Shown here: in pieces, positions 3,303 to 41,332 of the stretch
Layout: each line of letters opens with the position of its first letter
How positions within the stretch are numbered: the stretch's first letter is position 1
Assembly: GCA_026394605.1 (NCBI GenBank)
Contig: JAPKXY010000051.1
Location: forward strand, 1-64,000
Reading direction: 5' to 3'
Length of the DNA stretch: 64,000 nucleotides
Source: Methanoregula sp.
GTDB taxonomy: Archaea > Halobacteriota > Methanomicrobia > Methanomicrobiales > Methanospirillaceae
Program-made: the position numbers and the translations under genes
Notes under the pieces: model-generated
What the model was told of the DNA's origin: nothing
The model's database searches: none
Seen by the model: the letters and a program-made list of their open reading frames with translations, nothing else

Positions 3303-4268
3303 ATGGTACCCCTCTCCGAAGGATCCAGGTGTGAAGGGACGAACAGCCCTGCTCTCGATATATTTACCCAGGCACGAGCACTTGGGAGGCAGGGGCAGCA
3401 TGAAGAAGCCCTGGCTTTGTTTTCTCAGGCGCTTGCCCTTGAACCGGCGCTTGCCCTTGCCTGGGTGGGGAAGGGATTTGCGCTTGGAAAACTGGGAAGA
3501 TATGAAGAGGAGATTGAGTGTTGCGACAAAGCCATTGAGATTGACTCATCATGTGTTGATGCCTGGAATGCCAGGGCGTTTGCCCTTGGTATGCTGGGAA
3601 GGCTGGAGGAAAAGGTGGCATGTTGTGAAGAGGCAATAGTTCTTGATCCCCAGAATGCCTCGGCATGGAACAACAAGGGTATTGCACTCGGGATGCTGGG
3701 GAAGTATGAGGAGGAGATCAGGTGCTGCGAACGGGCACTTTCCCTGCGCCCCCGTTATCTCTCAGCATGGGTGAATAAAGGGTATGCGCTGGGGAGGCGG
3801 AAACAGTATAACGATGAGATTGCCTGCTATAACCGTGCATTGAAAATATATCCTTATTATATATCTGCACTTTTCAACAAAGCGGTGGCACTTGCCAACC
3901 TGAAACATCATACAGAGGCACTGGATGTATTCGACCGTGTGCTCGGGATCGATCCCCACCATCCAAAGGCACTCTACCGGAAGGGATTCGCACTCGCAAA
4001 ACTCGGAAGATATGAGGAGGCGATCGAGTATCTTGAAAAAGCCCTCTCGATCGATCCCGTGATTGCAGACGCATGGGTGGTATTGAGTAACTCCTGCTTT
4101 ATGCTGGGCAGACTTGACGAATCGGCGCGGGCATTTGACCAGGCATATTATATTGATGCTCAGGAAGTCGGGTCAGGGATCGTGAAGGGTATGTTGCTTT
4201 TAAAATCGGGAAGATTCGATGATGCACTGAGAAGCTTCTCCGAAGTGCTCGGTATCATGTTGAGGTAA
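3303..4268 (+). CDS. Soluble tetratricopeptide-repeat (TPR) protein
   Basis: The protein has 321 aa and consists almost entirely of 34-residue TPR units starting near residue 15, with the canonical AW-NKG, LG-YEEAI and AL-LDP positions. I see about nine units, the later ones less regular. There is no signal peptide or membrane segment, so it is probably a cytoplasmic protein-protein interaction scaffold. AGGTG lies a few bases before the ATG, and a TATA-like box near 3245-3253 fits a 28-base leader. The repeat style matches the giant TPR protein 29 kb downstream. Its partner is unknown. Confidence 0.85.
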   Translation: MVPLSEGSRCEGTNSPALDIFTQARALGRQGQHEEALALFSQALALEPALALAWVGKGFALGKLGRYEEEIECCDKAIEIDSSCVDAWNARAFALGMLGRLEEKVACCEEAIVLDPQNASAWNNKGIALGMLGKYEEEIRCCERALSLRPRYLSAWVNKGYALGRRKQYNDEIACYNRALKIYPYYISALFNKAVALANLKHHTEALDVFDRVLGIDPHHPKALYRKGFALAKLGRYEEAIEYLEKALSIDPVIADAWVVLSNSCFMLGRLDESARAFDQAYYIDAQEVGSGIVKGMLLLKSGRFDDALRSFSEVLGIMLR

Positions 4269-32334: not shown

Positions 32335-32363
32335 GAGAAAAAGATCATCAGATCTTCTTCGAA
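32335..32363 (-). terminator. mscL terminator overlapping its own 3' end (repeat copy 2)
   Basis: On the minus strand AAGATC-TGAT-GATCTT forms a six-base-pair hairpin (32341-32356) followed by Ts. The mscL stop codon TGA (32350-32348) lies in the loop. An identical 29-bp copy lies 44 bp further downstream. Confidence 0.6.
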
Positions 32364-32737
32364 GTGTCGCCTTTCATGATATATTTGACAACAAGAAACA
32401 CCACGAGAGCGATGATTATAAAGTCAATGATTGCTCCGAGCAGATCGCCGAAAAGGAATTTGATGGGACCTATTAAAAATTCCGAAGTCCGCCAGTCCCC
32501 CTTTGGCATAAGGACTGCCACGATCGGCATGACAACATCCTGAACCAACGATGTGACAAGCTTCGTTGCCGCTGCACCGATCACGAACGCAACAGCAAGC
32601 CCGACTACCTGGTACTTTTTTAAAAAATCCAGAAATTCTTCCTGAAATCCCCGTGCTCCGCCAGTCAGTCCCTTGATACCTTCTTCAACTTTTTTTTCCG
32701 TTTTCTTGAGATCTTCTCCTGTCATCTGATTGATCAC
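32348..32737 (-). CDS. mscL: Large-conductance mechanosensitive channel MscL
   Basis: The 129-aa protein has a charged N-terminus, a first transmembrane helix with VVGLAVAFVIGAAATKLVTSLVQDVVMP, a short loop and a second helix (LGAIIDFIIIALVVFLVVKYI). These are the features of MscL, the pentameric safety valve opened by membrane tension on hypo-osmotic shock. Its N-terminal stretch (about 40 residues, with EEGIKGLTGG) is longer than the E. coli protein, while the C-terminal bundle is truncated to MKGDTSKKI. It may start at ATG 32737 or ATG 32725. It appears monocistronic. Confidence 0.93.
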   Translation of the reverse strand: MINQMTGEDLKKTEKKVEEGIKGLTGGARGFQEEFLDFLKKYQVVGLAVAFVIGAAATKLVTSLVQDVVMPIVAVLMPKGDWRTSEFLIGPIKFLFGDLLGAIIDFIIIALVVFLVVKYIMKGDTSKKI

Positions 32738-32899: not shown

Positions 32900-35800
32900 T
32901 CATTCTGACGACTGCTTGAGCACACGGATGAGATCCTTTTTCATCCGCTGCACCCGCTCGTCATGAGGATTGATCGCAAGGACCCGGTTGTATGCAGCGA
33001 GCGCCTCGCGGTGCCGCCCGAGCATCTGGAGTGCTGTGCCCTTGTTGAACCATGCAAGAGAGTCATTGGGGTCTAAAGCAAGGGCGCGGTCAAATGCCGA
33101 GAGTGCTTCTGTATGCCGCTGGAGTTCCCCGAGCACAGAGCCCATGGAGAACCAGCCTTTTGCATAGTTCGGTTCGATCGCAAGACCCTTCTCGTACGAG
33201 GCGATAGCCTCCTCGAACCGCCCGAGTTTCTTGAGCGCTGTTCCGCGGTTGATCCATCCTACTGCATTTTCTGGGTCGAGAGCAAGGGCACGGTCGTACG
33301 CGTCGACTGCTTCGGCATGCATACCAAGCCGGTTGAATGCCGAACCCTTATTATTCCAGGCTCCGGCATCATCCGGATTGATGGTCAGCGCCCGGTCATA
33401 TGCACTCAACGCCTCCTGGAACTGCCCGAGTTTTGTCAGCGCATTTCCCTTGTTGAACCAGGCATCTGCGTCATCAGCATTCAGTGTGAGCGCTTTATCA
33501 TAGGATGTGATTGCGTCAGCATGTTTTCCGAGCCGGTTGAGTGCAGAACCCCTGTTATTCCACGCACTGGCATCTGTCGGGTTGATGGAAAGCGCTTTAT
33601 CGAGTGCTGCGATTGCTTCGGGGTATTTTCCAAGCCGGTTGAGTGCGTTGCCCTTGTTATACAGGAGATCCGGATCCTCAGGTTTGATTGCAAGGGCACG
33701 GTCGTATGCTGCAATTGCTTCATCATACCGCCCGAGCTTGTGGAGTGCGAGCCCTTTGTTCTTCCACCCGACAGGGTGGTTCGGGTGCCGGGCGAGCGCC
33801 GCGTCATATGCAGCGATCGCCTCCTCATGTCGCCCGAGCCGGTGAAGCGCGTTACCCTTGTTGTTCCATCCTACAGCATGCTCGGGATCGAGGGCGAGAG
33901 CACGATCATATGCGTCGACCGCTTCTTCGAACCTTCCGAGTTTATTAAGCGAGAGCCCTTTGTTCTTCCACCCGATCGGATGGGACGGGTTGAGAGCGAT
34001 CACTTTGTCATATGCAGCGATCGCCTCCTCATGCCGTCCGAGTCTGTCGAGGATTGATCCTTTGTTGTTCCATGCGTCAGCGTCATTTGGGTTGAGTGAG
34101 AGTGTACGGTCAAGCGCCGAAAGGGCATCGGTAAATTTCCCCAGCTCAATGAGTGCAATCGCCTTGTTCTGCCAGGCTTCTCCGTCATCAGTCCTGATCC
34201 TGATCGCACGGTCGTATGCTTCAAGCGCGTCTCCAAATCTTCCAAGATCGGCAAGGACATTGCCTTTGTTGAACCACGCATCACCATCATCTGGATTGAG
34301 TGCAAGCGCATGGTCGTACGATGCAATTGCATCTTCGTGCATCCCGATCATGTTGAGAGCTGTTCCCCGGCTGTTCCAGGTCGGCGCATCATCGGGATCA
34401 AACGCCAGCGCCCGGTCGAATTCTGTAATCGCATCCTCTATCTTACCGGACCGGATCAGGGCAAGACCTTTGTTGTGGAGGGCAACTGCATCGCCAGGGT
34501 TCAAGGATAGTGCCCGGTCAAAAGCTGCGATGGCGTCATCAAGGGTACCGAGCCGGAGCAAGGACAGTCCTTTGCTATGCCATATATCAGCGTCGTCAGG
34601 AAGACTTTCGAGAGCACGGTCAAACACCACCACCGCCTCAGAGTGATGACCGAGGCTCCCGAGTGCCAGGCCCTTGTTGTAGAGAACGACCGGATCACCC
34701 GGGTCAATCGAGAGCGCCCGCTCAAACGAACGCAGTGCATCATCAAACCGGCCGAGCCCGATGAGAGCGGAACCACGCCCGTTCCACGCTGCAGTCCGAC
34801 CGGGGTCAATGGCAAGTGCCCGGTCATATGCAGCGAGCGCTTCCTGGTTAAGGGTGATATCAGCGAGTGCGTTTCCTTTCCTGTACCATGCACCGGCGTT
34901 GGAGGAGTCAAGGGAGAGCCCGCGCTCAAAAGCGCCGACCGCGTCTCTCGAACGTTTGAGCAGGACGAGGGCATCCCCTTTTCCAAACCATGCGGCAGCG
35001 CATCGCTCATCGATTTCGAGTGCAGAATCAAATGCAGCTACAGCCTCATTATATTTCCCGAGCTTATTGAATGCGGAACCCTTGCCGTACCATGTATCCG
35101 CGACCCCGGGTTTTATGGTAAGGGATCGGTCAAAGGCAGCAATCGCCTCTTTTACGTGCCCCATCCTGCTGAGCGCCTGCCCCTTCCAGTACCAGGCATT
35201 GGCATGGTCACGATTGATCGCAAGCGCCTGATCGAGAACTGATACCGCTTCATCAGATCTTCCCAGATCATGGAGCACCAATCCCTTTGACACATATATA
35301 TCCGGATCACCCGAATCAATTGTAATGGCGCGGTCGTATGCTGCAAGCGCCTCTTCAGTGTGGTTATTTTTGTGTAATACATCGCCCTTGTTGGACCAGA
35401 CCACCGCATTGCCGGGTTCGATTGCAATTGCCCGGTCAAATGCTTCTATTGCTTGATCGTAGCGACCAAGACGGGCCACGGCATTGCCGAGGTTGTTCCA
35501 GGCATCGGCATCATCAGGAGCAAGTGAAACGGTCCTGGTATAGGCTTCGAGTGCATCGTCATAATGTTCGAGACTGTCGAGAGCGACCCCCCGGTTGAAC
35601 CAGAGGATTGCATCATCAGGTTCGAGCGCGATTCCCTTGTCGTAGGCGTCAATCGCCTCGGAGTAACGGCGTAGTTTTTGGAGGGTATTCCCCCGGCTGT
35701 TCCAGGTCGCGGCATCGTCAGGACCAGTTGCGATCGCCCGGTCGTATGCGTCGAGTGCCTCATCGTACCGTTCGAACTCGGTCAGGGCATTGCCCCGCAG

Positions 35801-38800
35801 GTTCCAGATATGGGAGCTCTCCGGCTGGCTTTTAAGGGCAAGGTCGTATTCCGCGATTGCCTCGTCCGCCCTTCCGAGGTTCTCGAGTGCCTGTCCTTTG
35901 ACCGTACGGGCGTCAGCGTCTCCAGGTTGAAGAGAAAGCCCACGGTCGAGCGCCAGAACTGCCTCGCGGTACTGCCCGAGCATGCAGAGGAGGGATCCTT
36001 TGGAGAACCACGCATCCGCGGACGTTGCATCAAGGGTTGTTGCACGGTCATAGGCATCGACAGCTTCCTGCATCCGGCCGAGTTCCTTGAGGATTGACCC
36101 CTTTGCATGCCAGAGGGCCGCTACATCAGGCGTGAGTGCCAACGCATGGCTGTATGCATCAAGTGCCTCAACATAGCGCTTCTGTGCGGTAAGGGCGTGC
36201 GCACGTGCATCCCAGAGTTGAGCGTTGCCTTGATCGAATGAGAGAGATCGATCAAACGCTTCGATCGCTTCTTCAAACTGTTGCTGTGCGGCAAAAATGG
36301 TGCCGAGGCTTAACCATGCGTCCGGATAGGATGGTCGGATCTCAATTGCGTGATGGTACGCGGTGATTGCTTCATCGGGACGCTGGAGCGTTTCCAGCAC
36401 ATGTCCCTTATTGTACCAGGCCTCTGCATACGTCGGAAGGATGGTGAGAGCCATATCATAAGCGGCGACCGCCTCGTCATAGTGTTCCTGCGCATCGAGT
36501 GCATGCCCCTTATTATACCAGGCCTGAGCATAGGATGGCGCAATCCTGATTGCCGTATTAAACGCCTCGATCGCCTCGTCGTATCTGCCAAGATTGATGA
36601 GCGCCGATCCTTTATTGTTCCAGACAATCGCGTCATTGGGATCCAGCGCGAGCGACTTACCGTATGCTTCAATCGCCTCATCAAAGCGCCCGAGTTCGTT
36701 GAGTGCCGATCCTTTATTGTTCCACACAACATGGTCCGTGGGTTCCAAGGAAAGCGCGCTTGTGAAGGCACGAATTGCCTCATCATATCTTCCGGTGCTG
36801 CCCAGCACATTCCCTTTCGCTGCCCAGCTCTGGACATTCCCCGCATCCAGTGCGAGCGACCGGTCAAACGTCTCCAGCGCCTCGCTGTACTGACCGAGTG
36901 CGTGGAGTGCGCGCCCACGAGTGGAAAGGGTCGCTGCATTGTCCGGCTGGAGGGAGAGTGCCCTGTCGAGCGCGCCGATCGCTTCATCATACCTGCCGAG
37001 TCTGACAAGCTCGCTCCCTTTAGCAGCCCATGACGAAGAATCTTCGGGGGCACCGTCAAGTGCTTTCTTAAATGCGTCGACCGCTTCTTCAGCCCGTCCG
37101 AGTATGGAAAGTGCACGACCCCTGCCAGACCATGCAGGAGCGTCATCGGGATCGAGGGCGATCGCCCGGTCAAATGCTGTGATCGCCTCCTCTATTCGAT
37201 TGAGTACGACCAGTGCCGCACCCTTGCTGACCCAGATTGAAGGGGAATCAGCGTCGATTTCCAGTGCCTGTCCGAGTGCCTCGAGTGCCTTATCGGCATA
37301 TCCAAGGGCGGTAAGCGCGCGTCCCTTTCCTGACCATGCTGCAACATCATGTGGACGGAGTGCGATTGCCCGGTCAAATGCAGTGATTGCCTCGTCTCTA
37401 CGCCCCAGCATTGCAAGTGCGGACCCTTTTCCAATCCAGAGGTCTGCATCATCCTGTCGAATAGAGAGCGCGGTGTCAAGCGAACTGACCGCTGCCTCGT
37501 ATTTCCCGAGGTTTGTAAAGGCGGTACCTTTGCCCGCCCACGCAGCAGTATCCTGTGGATCGAACGCGATTGCCTTTTCAAATGCGGCAACCGCTTCGGT
37601 GTCACACCTGAGTGTCAGGAGCACAGCGCCCTTTTTGCACCAGAGTTTTCCATCCGCGTCATTAACTTCAAGAGCCCGGTTGAACGCCTCAAGTGCCTGT
37701 TCGGAGCTGCCGAGGGATGCAAGAGCCTCGCCCCGGCCTGCCCATGCAGTGGCGTTATCAGGGTCAAGCGCAATTACCCTGTCAAAGGCAGCGACCACAT
37801 CATCGGTTTTTCCAAGTTTCCACAGCACGGCCCCTTTGAGAGTCCAGGTACCGGCACTATCCGGTTCGAATGATAGGACTTTTTCAAATGCCTCAAGCGC
37901 TTCAGTATAGCGCCCCAGGTCCGATAATGTCTGCCCCTTGCTCCGCCAGATTGCAGGGTTGTCGGGATCGAGCGCAAGAGCTTTATCGAAAGACCTGACA
38001 GCTTCTTTATATTTTCCCAGAGTGCGGAGTGCCGCGCCTCGCTGGTTCCACCCCCATGCATGGTCAGGTTCGAGAGCCAGTGCGCGGTCAATTGCGTCTA
38101 TCGCATCGTTGTTCTTGCCCAGGGCACTCAACGCAGCTCCCTTTCCCGCCCACGCATGCCCGTACTCAGGGCGCAGCGTGATTGCCCGGTCAAAGGCGTT
38201 GATTGCCTCATCAAGTTTATTGATTTTTACAAGCGCTGCACCTTTGCTGTACCACAGCATGGCATCCTGTGAATCCAGCGCCAGCGCATGGTCATATGCC
38301 CCGAGTGCCATGTCGTACTGCCCGAGTTCAGAAAGCCCGTTGCCTTTGTTTACCCACGCTTCGGTGAAGTCCGGACGGATCGCTGTAGCCTGCTCGAATG
38401 CGGTGACCGCTTCCTTTTGCATGCCGAAATTACTCAGGGCAAGTCCCTTATTGTTCCAGATTGAGGCATCACCGGGTTCGATCTCGAGGGCTTTCTGGAA
38501 GGCGGCAACAGCATCCTCGTACCGCCCAAGATCCCTGAGTGCCTGCCCTTTCTCGTTCCAAGCGAAAGCATCCTGTGTTTTGAGATCGGGCGTGGGGATG
38601 AGGGGTTCAATCACCTGTTCACTTTTCCTGATTTGATCGAGTGCTGCCCCACGAATTTTCCATGCTGCCGGGTGATCCTTTTCAATTGCGATAGCACGAT
38701 CACAGGAATCTGCGGCTTCTGCGTATCTTTCGAGGGCAAAGAGCAACTCCCCACGGATAACCCAGCCGCGGGTGTACTGTGGTTCAAGTGTGAGCGCCTT

Positions 38801-40219
38801 TTCCAGTGCAGCAAGCGCTTCTTCGATATGATGGAGCTCGTACAGGATCAACCCTTTGTTGAGCCATGCGACCGCATCTTCAGGATCGATTGCAATTGCC
38901 CGGTCGTACGCTGCGTCCGCATCATCCATCCTTCCGAGCGCTTTGAGTGCTGAACCCCTGTTGCACCAGACAATCGCATCATGGGCATCAACTGCGAGCG
39001 CATGGTCGTATGCCTCAATTGCGTCGTCATGGCGCCCGAGCCGGTCGAGTGCCGTTCCCTTGTTGTTCCAGATAATGGGGTCATCCGGATCAATGGCGAG
39101 CGCCTTGTTGTATGCCTCGATTGCCTCATCAAACCTGCCGAGCGGGATCAGGGCAAGCCCCTTATTGTGCCATGCTGCGGCATCATCGGGTTCCACAGTA
39201 TAATCAGGTTCTGGTGCGGGCTCTCTCTCCATGGTCTCAACAACGTCCACCGGTGCAACAATATCCGGGGTTTCAACAACGTCTACCGGTGCAACAATAT
39301 CCGGGGTTTCAATCACTTGGCCGGGTAGTTCGGCTTTTGCTGGTGCCGCGTGCGCCTGCTGCCACGTCCCGGCATACTCTGGATCGAATGCAACGGCGGT
39401 GTCATAAGAAGTAATCGCTCGTCCATCCTGCCCGAGTTCCCGGAGTACCTCTGCCTTGGCGAACCATGCGGCCGCAAAATTCTGGCGAATCGCCGTCGCA
39501 TGGTCGAAGGCATCGATTGCCTCCTCAAGCCTGCCAAGGTGCCGGAGCACGATGCCCCTGCCGTTCCATGCCTCTGCGTACTTGGGGTCAAGGGTTGTTG
39601 CGGTATCGTACGCGCCGAGCGCTTCATCGAACTGTTCTGACCTGCAGAGTGCGTTCCCCTTATTAAACCACGCGGTGACGAACTTCGGGAGGATGCCAAT
39701 AGCCTTATCAATTGCTGCGACCGCATCAGAAAACCGCGCGAGTTTGATCAGCACGACGCCCTTATTGTTCCAGGCATCAGCATCGTTGGGGCGCAGTGCT
39801 ATCGCACGGTCGTATGCTGTAATCGCTTCTTCATGTTGTCCGAGGTTATCCAGTGCGGTACCCTTGTTGAACCAGACCACCGCCTGCTCGCGGTCGATGG
39901 AGAGGGCGTGGTTGAGCGCGGCGAGTGCTTCTTTGTACCGCCCGAGTTTATTGAGGGCTGAGCCTTTGTTGTTCCAAGCCACGGCATGATTTGGGTTGAG
40001 CTCGAGGGCTTTGTCATACGCAGCGTTCGCCTCACCGTACCGCCCAAGACGGTTGAGCGCGTTCCCCTTGTTGTACCATGCTTCGGCGTAGCGGGGAAGG
40101 ACGGTGAGAACACGGTCAAACTCCGCGGTCGCCTCCTCGTAACGCCCGAGCTTGATGAGCGCAATCCCCCTGTTGAACCACTTGTAAGCACCCTCCTGAT
40201 CACTGATCTCCTTGCGCAC
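32900..40219 (-). CDS. Giant TPR solenoid protein, about 69 repeats
   Basis: The protein has about 2,439 aa made almost wholly of 34-residue TPR units. I counted about 69 in register (W4, G8, L11, Y/F, A20, A27, P32 positions), each of the form AW-NKG-AL-LGRY-EAI-AYD-AL-L-PD. Two short breaks occur: an acidic/Pro linker near residues 290-345 containing a duplicated 12-residue unit, and a partial unit near 530-550. No signal peptide, membrane segment or catalytic domain is seen. GTG 40219 is chosen because AGGAGGGG lies at 40234-40227; TTG 40243 would contain that sequence. It is presumably a very long cytoplasmic protein-binding scaffold. Confidence 0.92.
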   Translation of the reverse strand: MRKEISDQEGAYKWFNRGIALIKLGRYEEATAEFDRVLTVLPRYAEAWYNKGNALNRLGRYGEANAAYDKALELNPNHAVAWNNKGSALNKLGRYKEALAALNHALSIDREQAVVWFNKGTALDNLGQHEEAITAYDRAIALRPNDADAWNNKGVVLIKLARFSDAVAAIDKAIGILPKFVTAWFNKGNALCRSEQFDEALGAYDTATTLDPKYAEAWNGRGIVLRHLGRLEEAIDAFDHATAIRQNFAAAWFAKAEVLRELGQDGRAITSYDTAVAFDPEYAGTWQQAHAAPAKAELPGQVIETPDIVAPVDVVETPDIVAPVDVVETMEREPAPEPDYTVEPDDAAAWHNKGLALIPLGRFDEAIEAYNKALAIDPDDPIIWNNKGTALDRLGRHDDAIEAYDHALAVDAHDAIVWCNRGSALKALGRMDDADAAYDRAIAIDPEDAVAWLNKGLILYELHHIEEALAALEKALTLEPQYTRGWVIRGELLFALERYAEAADSCDRAIAIEKDHPAAWKIRGAALDQIRKSEQVIEPLIPTPDLKTQDAFAWNEKGQALRDLGRYEDAVAAFQKALEIEPGDASIWNNKGLALSNFGMQKEAVTAFEQATAIRPDFTEAWVNKGNGLSELGQYDMALGAYDHALALDSQDAMLWYSKGAALVKINKLDEAINAFDRAITLRPEYGHAWAGKGAALSALGKNNDAIDAIDRALALEPDHAWGWNQRGAALRTLGKYKEAVRSFDKALALDPDNPAIWRSKGQTLSDLGRYTEALEAFEKVLSFEPDSAGTWTLKGAVLWKLGKTDDVVAAFDRVIALDPDNATAWAGRGEALASLGSSEQALEAFNRALEVNDADGKLWCKKGAVLLTLRCDTEAVAAFEKAIAFDPQDTAAWAGKGTAFTNLGKYEAAVSSLDTALSIRQDDADLWIGKGSALAMLGRRDEAITAFDRAIALRPHDVAAWSGKGRALTALGYADKALEALGQALEIDADSPSIWVSKGAALVVLNRIEEAITAFDRAIALDPDDAPAWSGRGRALSILGRAEEAVDAFKKALDGAPEDSSSWAAKGSELVRLGRYDEAIGALDRALSLQPDNAATLSTRGRALHALGQYSEALETFDRSLALDAGNVQSWAAKGNVLGSTGRYDEAIRAFTSALSLEPTDHVVWNNKGSALNELGRFDEAIEAYGKSLALDPNDAIVWNNKGSALINLGRYDEAIEAFNTAIRIAPSYAQAWYNKGHALDAQEHYDEAVAAYDMALTILPTYAEAWYNKGHVLETLQRPDEAITAYHHAIEIRPSYPDAWLSLGTIFAAQQQFEEAIEAFDRSLSFDQGNAQLWDARAHALTAQKRYVEALDAYSHALALTPDVAALWHAKGSILKELGRMQEAVDAYDRATTLDATSADAWFSKGSLLCMLGQYREAVLALDRGLSLQPGDADARTVKGQALENLGRADEAIAEYDLALKSQPESSHIWNLRGNALTEFERYDEALDAYDRAIATGPDDAATWNSRGNTLQKLRRYSEAIDAYDKGIALEPDDAILWFNRGVALDSLEHYDDALEAYTRTVSLAPDDADAWNNLGNAVARLGRYDQAIEAFDRAIAIEPGNAVVWSNKGDVLHKNNHTEEALAAYDRAITIDSGDPDIYVSKGLVLHDLGRSDEAVSVLDQALAINRDHANAWYWKGQALSRMGHVKEAIAAFDRSLTIKPGVADTWYGKGSAFNKLGKYNEAVAAFDSALEIDERCAAAWFGKGDALVLLKRSRDAVGAFERGLSLDSSNAGAWYRKGNALADITLNQEALAAYDRALAIDPGRTAAWNGRGSALIGLGRFDDALRSFERALSIDPGDPVVLYNKGLALGSLGHHSEAVVVFDRALESLPDDADIWHSKGLSLLRLGTLDDAIAAFDRALSLNPGDAVALHNKGLALIRSGKIEDAITEFDRALAFDPDDAPTWNSRGTALNMIGMHEDAIASYDHALALNPDDGDAWFNKGNVLADLGRFGDALEAYDRAIRIRTDDGEAWQNKAIALIELGKFTDALSALDRTLSLNPNDADAWNNKGSILDRLGRHEEAIAAYDKVIALNPSHPIGWKNKGLSLNKLGRFEEAVDAYDRALALDPEHAVGWNNKGNALHRLGRHEEAIAAYDAALARHPNHPVGWKNKGLALHKLGRYDEAIAAYDRALAIKPEDPDLLYNKGNALNRLGKYPEAIAALDKALSINPTDASAWNNRGSALNRLGKHADAITSYDKALTLNADDADAWFNKGNALTKLGQFQEALSAYDRALTINPDDAGAWNNKGSAFNRLGMHAEAVDAYDRALALDPENAVGWINRGTALKKLGRFEEAIASYEKGLAIEPNYAKGWFSMGSVLGELQRHTEALSAFDRALALDPNDSLAWFNKGTALQMLGRHREALAAYNRVLAINPHDERVQRMKKDLIRVLKQSSE
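39235..39306. repeat. Tandem 36-bp repeat coding the TPR linker
   Basis: Two adjacent 36-bp units differ at two positions and encode two copies of a 12-residue Val/Pro/Asp-rich unit. It is the only non-TPR spacer of note inside the giant gene. Confidence 0.85.
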
Positions 40220-40265
40220 GCGATCGCCCCTCCTGATCTGCAATCAAGGAACTATCTTTAAGTTG

Positions 40266-40384: not shown

Positions 40385-41332
40385 TTAAAATCCCGATCGT
40401 CCTGTCTTAAACACCAACGCGTTATCAAACGCAGCCCTTGCCTCCTTCTGCTGCCCGAGGTTCTTTAAGGCAATGCCCCGGTTGTTCCAGATCCATTCGG
40501 AATCGGAGTTCTGTACCAGAGCCTGATCTGTGTAATACAGCGCAGCATCATACCTACCGAGCCCGAGAAGCGCCGATCCTTTCTGTCCGAGTGCCAGCGA
40601 ATCCCCGGGTGCCATTGCAAGGACGCGGTCAAAGGATTGCGATGCGTCCTGGTAGCGACCTAAAACGTTCTGGGCGATACCACGGTTGTACCACACCTCC
40701 TTTTGTGCAAGGTCGGGGTTCTTTGCGATCACCGCATCATACATCCTGAGTGCGCCTTCATAATCCCCGGCTTCGAGGAGTTCATCGCCCTGTACGATGG
40801 ACTGAGAATAGGCGCCTGTTGAGGTAGTCGGGCTGGCGCGGGTTGCGGGGAGGGTGTTGTAGGGTGAAGCCTGCGACAGGTTCAGCATGCTCACACCATT
40901 CATGAGCAGGACAGAAAGGACAATAACTACGAATATCCAGGCACAGCACCCTGCAGCGAACCGGACGGTTGCCGGGGAAACCCACGGCCCTGCCCGCGGG
41001 GTCTTCATGCGGGATCTGCCATTATGTTGTGGATTTTTGTCGTGTGCTGGGGCTGCATCTGTTCCCGTCGCCTGCTCTTTCCATGCGCTGTTATGATCCT
41101 CCTGTTCAGAAAATGTTGCCCTTGTCAAAGCTTGGTCGTATTTTTTCCGCCTACGCACATCACACAGGATCTTTGCCGCTTTATTAATCTCCTTCATCCG
41201 CTCTTCGGCATCCGGGAGGCGGCAGACATCCGGGTGCCACTGCTTTGCCTTTTTCCTGAATGCAGCGGCAATCTCTTCGGTTGTTGCATCGTCAGATACG
41301 CCAAGGATGTGGTAGTATGTAATAATCATCAT
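40385..41332 (-). CDS. DnaJ-domain, membrane-spanning TPR protein
   Basis: The 315-aa protein combines three parts. An N-terminal J domain (residues 1-68) has the diagnostic HPD in WHPDVCR. A hydrophobic segment near 123-145 (FAAGCCAWIFVVIVLSVLLMNG) spans the membrane. The C-terminal part has about four TPR units. The J domain should stimulate DnaK ATPase, with the TPRs on the other side of the membrane if there is a single span. It is co-oriented with and immediately upstream of the giant TPR gene, though that gene has its own TATA-like box. No dnaK or grpE is in the window. Confidence 0.85.
   Translation of the reverse strand: MMIITYYHILGVSDDATTEEIAAAFRKKAKQWHPDVCRLPDAEERMKEINKAAKILCDVRRRKKYDQALTRATFSEQEDHNSAWKEQATGTDAAPAHDKNPQHNGRSRMKTPRAGPWVSPATVRFAAGCCAWIFVVIVLSVLLMNGVSMLNLSQASPYNTLPATRASPTTSTGAYSQSIVQGDELLEAGDYEGALRMYDAVIAKNPDLAQKEVWYNRGIAQNVLGRYQDASQSFDRVLAMAPGDSLALGQKGSALLGLGRYDAALYYTDQALVQNSDSEWIWNNRGIALKNLGQQKEARAAFDNALVFKTGRSGF

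Follow-up and report, generated by a model that had tools for sequence, protein, structure and literature searches.

A 69-repeat TPR protein encoded beside a J-domain gene in Methanoregula-related archaea, and a second TPR giant whose length differs mostly in steps of eight repeats

The giant gene and its J-domain neighbour

The DNA analysed here (the window) is a stretch of 64,000 nucleotides from a Methanoregula sp. genome. On its reverse strand a gene for a giant TPR protein, here termed family A, lies between the genes for a J-domain protein and MscL. The features of the locus are the following:

32348..32737 (-): MscL, downstream flank
32900..40219 (-): gene of family A, the giant TPR protein; 69 TPR units, 2,439 aa from the most likely start (GTG)
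32954..34279 (-): conserved array of the C-terminus, units 57-69; units 57, 58, 60-67 and 69 have an invariant Asn at TPR position 6 (Asn-6)
32954..39175 (-): units 9-69, unbroken 61-unit array in register
36320..36727 (-): units 33-36, central conservation peak; Asn-6 invariant in units 33-35
37136..37951 (-): units 21-28; the orthologue from genome G002 lacks 7 units (238 aa) inside this stretch
38564..38665 (-): degenerate unit 14 (aa 519-552), second helix lost: AWKIRGAALDQIRKSEQVIEPLIPTPDLKTQDAF
39176..39367 (-): Pro/Glu/Val-rich linker, 64 aa (aa 285-348)
39368..40183 (-): units 1-8, an N-terminal module as long as one superhelical turn
40385..41332 (-): partner gene encoding a J domain, one hydrophobic segment and three TPRs, 315 aa
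41491..42351 (-): DUF2099, upstream flank

The open frame of the giant (32900-40243, reverse strand) begins with TTG and comprises 2,447 codons. The GTG at 40219 is the most likely true start, since GGAGG lies upstream of it and every orthologue begins GTG-RKE[IM]SDQE. An earlier note on this DNA, made from the letters alone, had counted about 69 in-register units over about 2,440 residues at 32900-40219, with two short breaks. Dynamic programming on the protein returned 70 windows, one of which scored low and was an artefact in the linker, leaving 69 units and bearing out both the count and the coordinates; the two breaks are the linker and degenerate unit 14. The layout is therefore eight units, the linker and 61 further units, with 68 units canonical and one degenerate. 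Autocorrelation of the protein reaches 0.38 at a lag of 34 residues, against 0.04-0.12 at other lags, and the unit consensus, AWNNKGSALNKLGRYDEAIAAYDRALALDPDDAD, carries the canonical W4-G8-A20-A27-P32 pattern. The Pfam TPR_1 model scores 1726 bits and, among the best 25 of 48 Pfam matches, solely TPR-type families were found and no catalytic, membrane, sensor, kinase or TM domain, in keeping with the earlier claim that the protein lacks catalytic and membrane domains; the tail after unit 69 is 17 aa long. The giant is a member of the TPR superfamily, and the observation of a protein of about 69 repeats is confirmed.

Several minor features of the window accompany the array. Within units 18-31 two unit types alternate (AW[AS]GKG and [LI]W.xKG), and net charge per unit in the protein has a lag-2 autocorrelation of 0.48, that is, a two-unit alternation. 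Long antisense frames, the largest of 329 aa, are numerous opposite the repeats (33113-39989, forward strand); they are a by-product of the codon periodicity of the array, and no genes are assigned to them. A further TPR protein of about 321 aa, encoded at 3303-4268 (+), matches the N-terminus of the giant.

The partner gene lies 165 bp upstream of the giant on the same strand. Its J domain matches Pfam DnaJ with an E-value of 1e-20, and the HPD motif (H33-P34-D35) is invariant in all eight sequences. All eight genomes of the genus have the gene, and the 53 relatives, drawn from 28 other genera, lack it; the giant adjoins it in the same order in all seven loci that are assembled far enough. 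Two genomes of a sister genus (g5) keep the order of DUF2099 and MscL, but there the interval holds a response-regulator/PAS protein and lacks both the J-domain gene and the giant. Because the J-domain gene and the giant co-occur, adjoin and are both missing from the sister-genus interval, they behave as one two-gene module, which is new here; the adjacency is known from one genus and with a 165-bp gap, which makes it limited evidence, and an operon is putative.

MscL lies downstream in all seven family A loci. It was considered as a functional partner and rejected, as the sister genus has the DUF2099-MscL synteny but not the module. The same interval bears on the idea of a signalling or regulatory hub, according to which the module replaced the response-regulator/PAS gene and may sense or relay the state of the membrane together with MscL. 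The content of the g5 interval and the constant presence of MscL would fit such a hub, but both genera have MscL and DUF2099 on either side of the site, which makes the MscL linkage independent of the module, and the giant has none of the sensor, kinase or TM domains that were looked for; we regard a hub as very improbable.

DnaK was found in 61/61 genomes searched. The co-chaperones Hop, CHIP and TOM70 likewise tie TPRs to Hsp70 biology. A Hop-type carboxylate clamp, for which we assumed the pattern K5-N9 / N6 / K2-R6 over three consecutive TPRs, was not found in family A, where any unit triple has at most two of the five clamp residues, and DnaK does not end in an EEVD tail. On this sequence evidence a TPR-Hsp70 contact of the classical type is thus unlikely, and any contact between the giant and Hsp70 would be of another kind. 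The one-TM topology of the partner, with basic residues before the TM segment, suggests that its TPRs lie outside the cytoplasm, and direct TPR-TPR contact between partner and giant is therefore uncertain.

Conservation, predicted shape and groove of family A

Full family A orthologues were found in seven members (the present one included) of one Methanoregula-related genus; an eighth genome has the partner gene at a contig end. Comparison of orthologue repeat numbers, a check proposed by the earlier note, gave 69 units in five of the six further assemblies and 62 in the sixth (G002), so that 6/7 genes have 69. Orthologues are 54-81% identical, and their alignment is gap-free in all repeats save for one loss of 238 (7 x 34) residues in G002; other length changes concern the linker (61-150 aa) and a few C-terminal residues. 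The G002 deletion (locus L049, alignment columns 877-1115) is exactly seven units, in an assembly of 170 contigs, and may be either a real deletion or an assembly collapse. Values of dN/dS are about 0.12-0.17 for most pairs with unsaturated synonymous sites, several pairs being saturated. Between species, units of the same index are 58-67% identical, compared with 38-39% for units of other indices. Conservation peaks at both ends (0.76-0.91 in units 1-4, which are among the most conserved, and 0.79-0.87 in units 60-62), with lesser peaks in units 32-35 and elsewhere. The comparisons indicate that family A is under strong purifying selection.

Two alternatives are to be set against these data. 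The first is that the array is an artefact, namely mis-assembled or non-expressed repeat DNA, which the earlier note had named as a possible refutation. Repeats in general assemble badly and the window comes from a 60-contig draft, but the DNA repeat copies are only about 50% identical, so that short reads can resolve them, and the array recurs in six independent orthologous assemblies. One of these is a single contig of 2.17 Mb, which excludes mis-assembly as the cause of the array. The strong purifying selection and the Shine-Dalgarno sequence before a conserved GTG also speak for a real gene, and an artefact is extremely improbable. The second alternative is an ordinary multi-purpose TPR protein that has grown by repeat duplication and whose length is just more binding surface. 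TPR arrays expand readily, and TPR proteins abound in the genome and in the order (131 matches, spread over several contigs); against this stand the 69 units held in register in 6/7 species at such identity and dN/dS values, and the unit-specific conservation. As to length, conservation has largely refuted this explanation, which we hold to be improbable overall.

Structure prediction in pieces, also proposed earlier, was carried out with AF2 on the C-terminal 960 aa (the last 28 units; seven sequences), and the description that follows thus concerns a predicted, part-length model. It forms a continuous TPR superhelix with a pLDDT of 93.8 and 56 regular helices, equal to 28 units; the pTM of 0.48 is expected because the rod is long and flexible. 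In Foldseek the model matched the crystal structure of a 16-repeat CTPR (9qhb) with a TM of 0.96 and 1.2 Å over 270 residues (8 repeats), and the OGT TPR domain (6eou) with a TM of 0.91 and 2.2 Å. CTPRs have eight repeats per superhelical turn (PMC7885266), or seven to eight with a pitch of about 72 Å according to PMC4191447. The model, the CTPR match and these papers support the seven to eight units per turn suggested in the earlier note, and its figure of roughly nine turns is close to 69/8 = 8.6. Family A is predicted to form a continuous right-handed superhelix, which would make about 8.6 turns; should it share the CTPR pitch of 7.2 nm for every 8 repeats, it would measure roughly 60 nm. 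The likeness to CTPR8 and CTPR16 (8chy, 9qhb) thus covers the 34-residue unit, the turn of eight repeats and the backbone fit, and extends to a near-consensus sequence (phmmer E-value 6e-118). However, CTPRs are designed and have near-identical units, whereas family A is natural and has 69 units each with a conserved identity, a linker and Asn ladders at its ends.

The concave face of the superhelix was scored at positions 2, 5, 6, 9, 12, 13, 33 and 34, an assignment that partly follows the TPR literature. Unit-specific conservation is 0.47 at concave and 0.29 at convex positions (rank test over positions, p 0.0009); a cruder paired per-unit test on raw conservation gave p 0.07. Asn-6 occurs in 33/69 units and is invariant in 25, mostly in units 1-5 and 57-69 (in full: 1-5, 11, 12, 17, 33-35, 44, 53, 55, 57, 58, 60-67 and 69). 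In SPINDLY and OGT, Asn at TPR positions 5/6 forms a ladder that binds the backbone of the substrate (PMC9715652). The asparagine ladder at positions 5/6 that marks GT41 (OGT/SPINDLY) is present in family A, which also shares with these proteins the right-handed TPR superhelix. It differs in having 69 units rather than 11-13, in a ladder broken into end and middle runs, and in the absence of the GT41 C-terminal glycosyltransferase domain, as TPR matches alone and the short tail were found. Membership of GT41 was rejected for want of that domain; at most, family A works like a GT41 TPR domain. Asn-6 is common in consensus TPRs and may in part be ancestral in family A.

A second TPR giant and its steps of eight repeats

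Family A is the smaller of two TPR giants in its own genome. The other, family B, is a near-pure TPR protein of 3,807 aa encoded on contig C38 at C38:18542-29965 (+) (L003:5043-16466); it has 111 full units and a last one of 26 residues, and is counted as 112. The gene is convergent to grpE-dnaK-dnaJ and lies about 3.3 kb from dnaK. AF2 modelling of units 1-28 gave a pLDDT of 93.1 and a match to 8chy with a TM of 0.95 and 1.5 Å. Like family A, family B is a near-pure, cytoplasmic TPR giant of the same genus, and its gene lies near Hsp70 genes. Unlike family A, it has 112-159 units and length steps that are mostly of 8 units, occurs also in the sister genus, complete genomes included (36/108 genomes of the taxonomic family, two genera) and has almost no Asn ladder; Asn-6 was found in 7/112 units, and the ladder is therefore no general feature of these giants.

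Unit counts of the 26 full-length members are 112 (3 members), 120 (7), 121 (2), 128 (5), 136 (4), 144 (2), and 134, 151 and 159 (one each); 21/26 are divisible by 8, the short last unit included. In unit-level pairwise alignments, whose pairs are non-independent, the gaps measure 8 units (464 times), 16 (67), 24 (20), 32 (3), 7 (67), 15 (55) or 1 (23), every other size occurring at most 7 times. On a maximum-likelihood tree, built from the ends of the same proteins, the counts need at least 13 changes and the count modulo 8 only 4; moduli 3, 5, 6, 7, 9 and 10 need 10-12 changes, and modulo 4 also needs 4. For 9 or more of 13 changes to keep the modulo-8 class, at a chance of 1/8 each, p = 3e-6. 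Recent internal duplications, defined as unit pairs at least 62% identical, were found at lags of 8 (100), 16 (33), 24 (7) and 15 (2), all other lags as far as 39 having none. The duplications affect three or more sites in several lineages, and the copies are 62-83% identical in DNA, which means that they are not assembly duplicates.

A lag-8 DNA template behind the steps was looked for and not found: genes that lack recent duplications have a DNA identity of 0.457-0.471 at lag 8, compared with 0.444-0.476 at other lags. Protein similarity in such genes shows no excess at lag 8 either, and a period of 8 was looked for in family B conservation and not found. After one 8-unit duplication, unequal crossing-over can add further steps of 8 at the same site. 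The step counts are therefore inflated at the hot spot in units 76-112; the other sites (units ~18-25, 42-53 and 67-75) argue for independent origins of the 8-unit steps. Family B lengths differ by up to 47 units, as those of an ordinary, freely growing TPR array might, but free growth would not yield the steps of 8 seen on the tree.

The simplest reading of these steps is selection on geometry, eight repeats being one predicted turn. We lean towards the view that the superhelical turn is a unit of selection, giant arrays changing mostly by whole turns of 8 (sometimes 7) repeats; such changes would be favoured because only they keep both ends and the groove in rotational register. Under such selection family A would be held at one length and family B would sample 14 to 20 turns. 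Over the same species, the steadiness of family A at 69 units may not differ significantly from that of family B.

Two further observations concern family B loci. In one near-complete assembly (G102, locus L098, on a large contig) the frame ends early in a non-TPR tail, in the manner of a frameshift, which may be a sequencing error or decay. A small TPR protein with a signal-peptide-like N-terminus (L078:1064-1729 and equivalents) is encoded alongside family B and the neighbour of dnaJ in 5/6 loci read, being absent in the M. boonei-like G011; it may be a secreted counterpart.

Possible functions, known systems and further giants

The earlier note had named a scaffold or molecular ruler among possible roles; to this idea can now be joined, we propose, the linked J-domain partner, the concave Asn ladders, the conserved length and the turn-sized steps of family B. 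Our tentative first choice is a fixed-length, multi-site holdase or scaffold that binds polypeptides and works with Hsp70. In the cytoplasm the giant would form a long TPR superhelix with about 8-9 turns, in which a flexible linker joins a one-turn head of 8 units to a rod of 61 units. Its concave groove, with invariant Asn-6 at the ends and in the middle, would hold extended or unfolded polypeptides by their backbone at several points. Clients would be brought to DnaK by the J-domain/TPR partner, anchored in the membrane. The length would stay fixed because the spacing and rotational phase of the two ends must be preserved.

An architectural ruler or scaffold, that is, a rigid rod of about 60 nm that spaces the proteins of one large complex through specific docking and has no unfolded clients, is possible if somewhat doubtful. 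It is consistent with the conserved unit number, the unit-specific concave residues and the strongest conservation at both ends, and the turn-sized steps of family B are as expected if end-to-end phase matters; CTPR arrays have themselves been called molecular rulers (PMC7885266). Detrended per-unit conservation in family A rises and falls with a period of 8.3-8.7 units, which would fit the docking of one face, but the AR1-null p ranges from 0.004 to 0.45 with detrending and range, so that the period is insignificant under some detrendings, and the 8.5-unit peak is absent in three close family A pairs; the period is a suggestive hint only. A ruler also sits poorly with G002, which lives with a version 7 units shorter, and with a linked partner that is a chaperone-type protein.

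The top Foldseek matches by E-value were SKI3/TTC37, IFT-A subunits and CTR9, which like family A are long TPR scaffolds; they differ in having irregular arrays, low TM-scores (0.2-0.35) and known other subunits, and the homology seen is limited to the TPRs. Among the titles and abstracts of open-access papers (subscription papers lying outside the search), no prior report was found of TPR giants in Methanoregula or methanogens, of repeat gain or loss by whole superhelical turns, or of archaeal J-domain/TPR pairs. New here, besides the two-gene module, are the invariant OGT/SPINDLY-like Asn ladder, mostly at both ends, and the 8-repeat blocks of family B. Designed TPR arrays serve as rulers and scaffolds, but selection of natural arrays for an exact geometry has been hard to test. 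The present archaea have two natural giants, of which family A is held at 69 units and family B steps mostly by 8, and the pair would give a direct evolutionary readout of superhelical geometry. Through its linked J-domain partner, the giant becomes a candidate Hsp70-associated module of methanogens that can be put to the test, and the ladder singles out exact residues for binding tests.

The remark in the earlier note that few TPR proteins are this long did not hold up, given the larger giant in the same genome and frames of 5,408 and 6,719 aa in related archaea. The 6,719-aa frame (genome G038, contig C6, ~153800-173930; L061, L062) has about 196 TPR units and belongs to another family of the order, and its sole relative is a partial one in G053 that is cut by the contig end.
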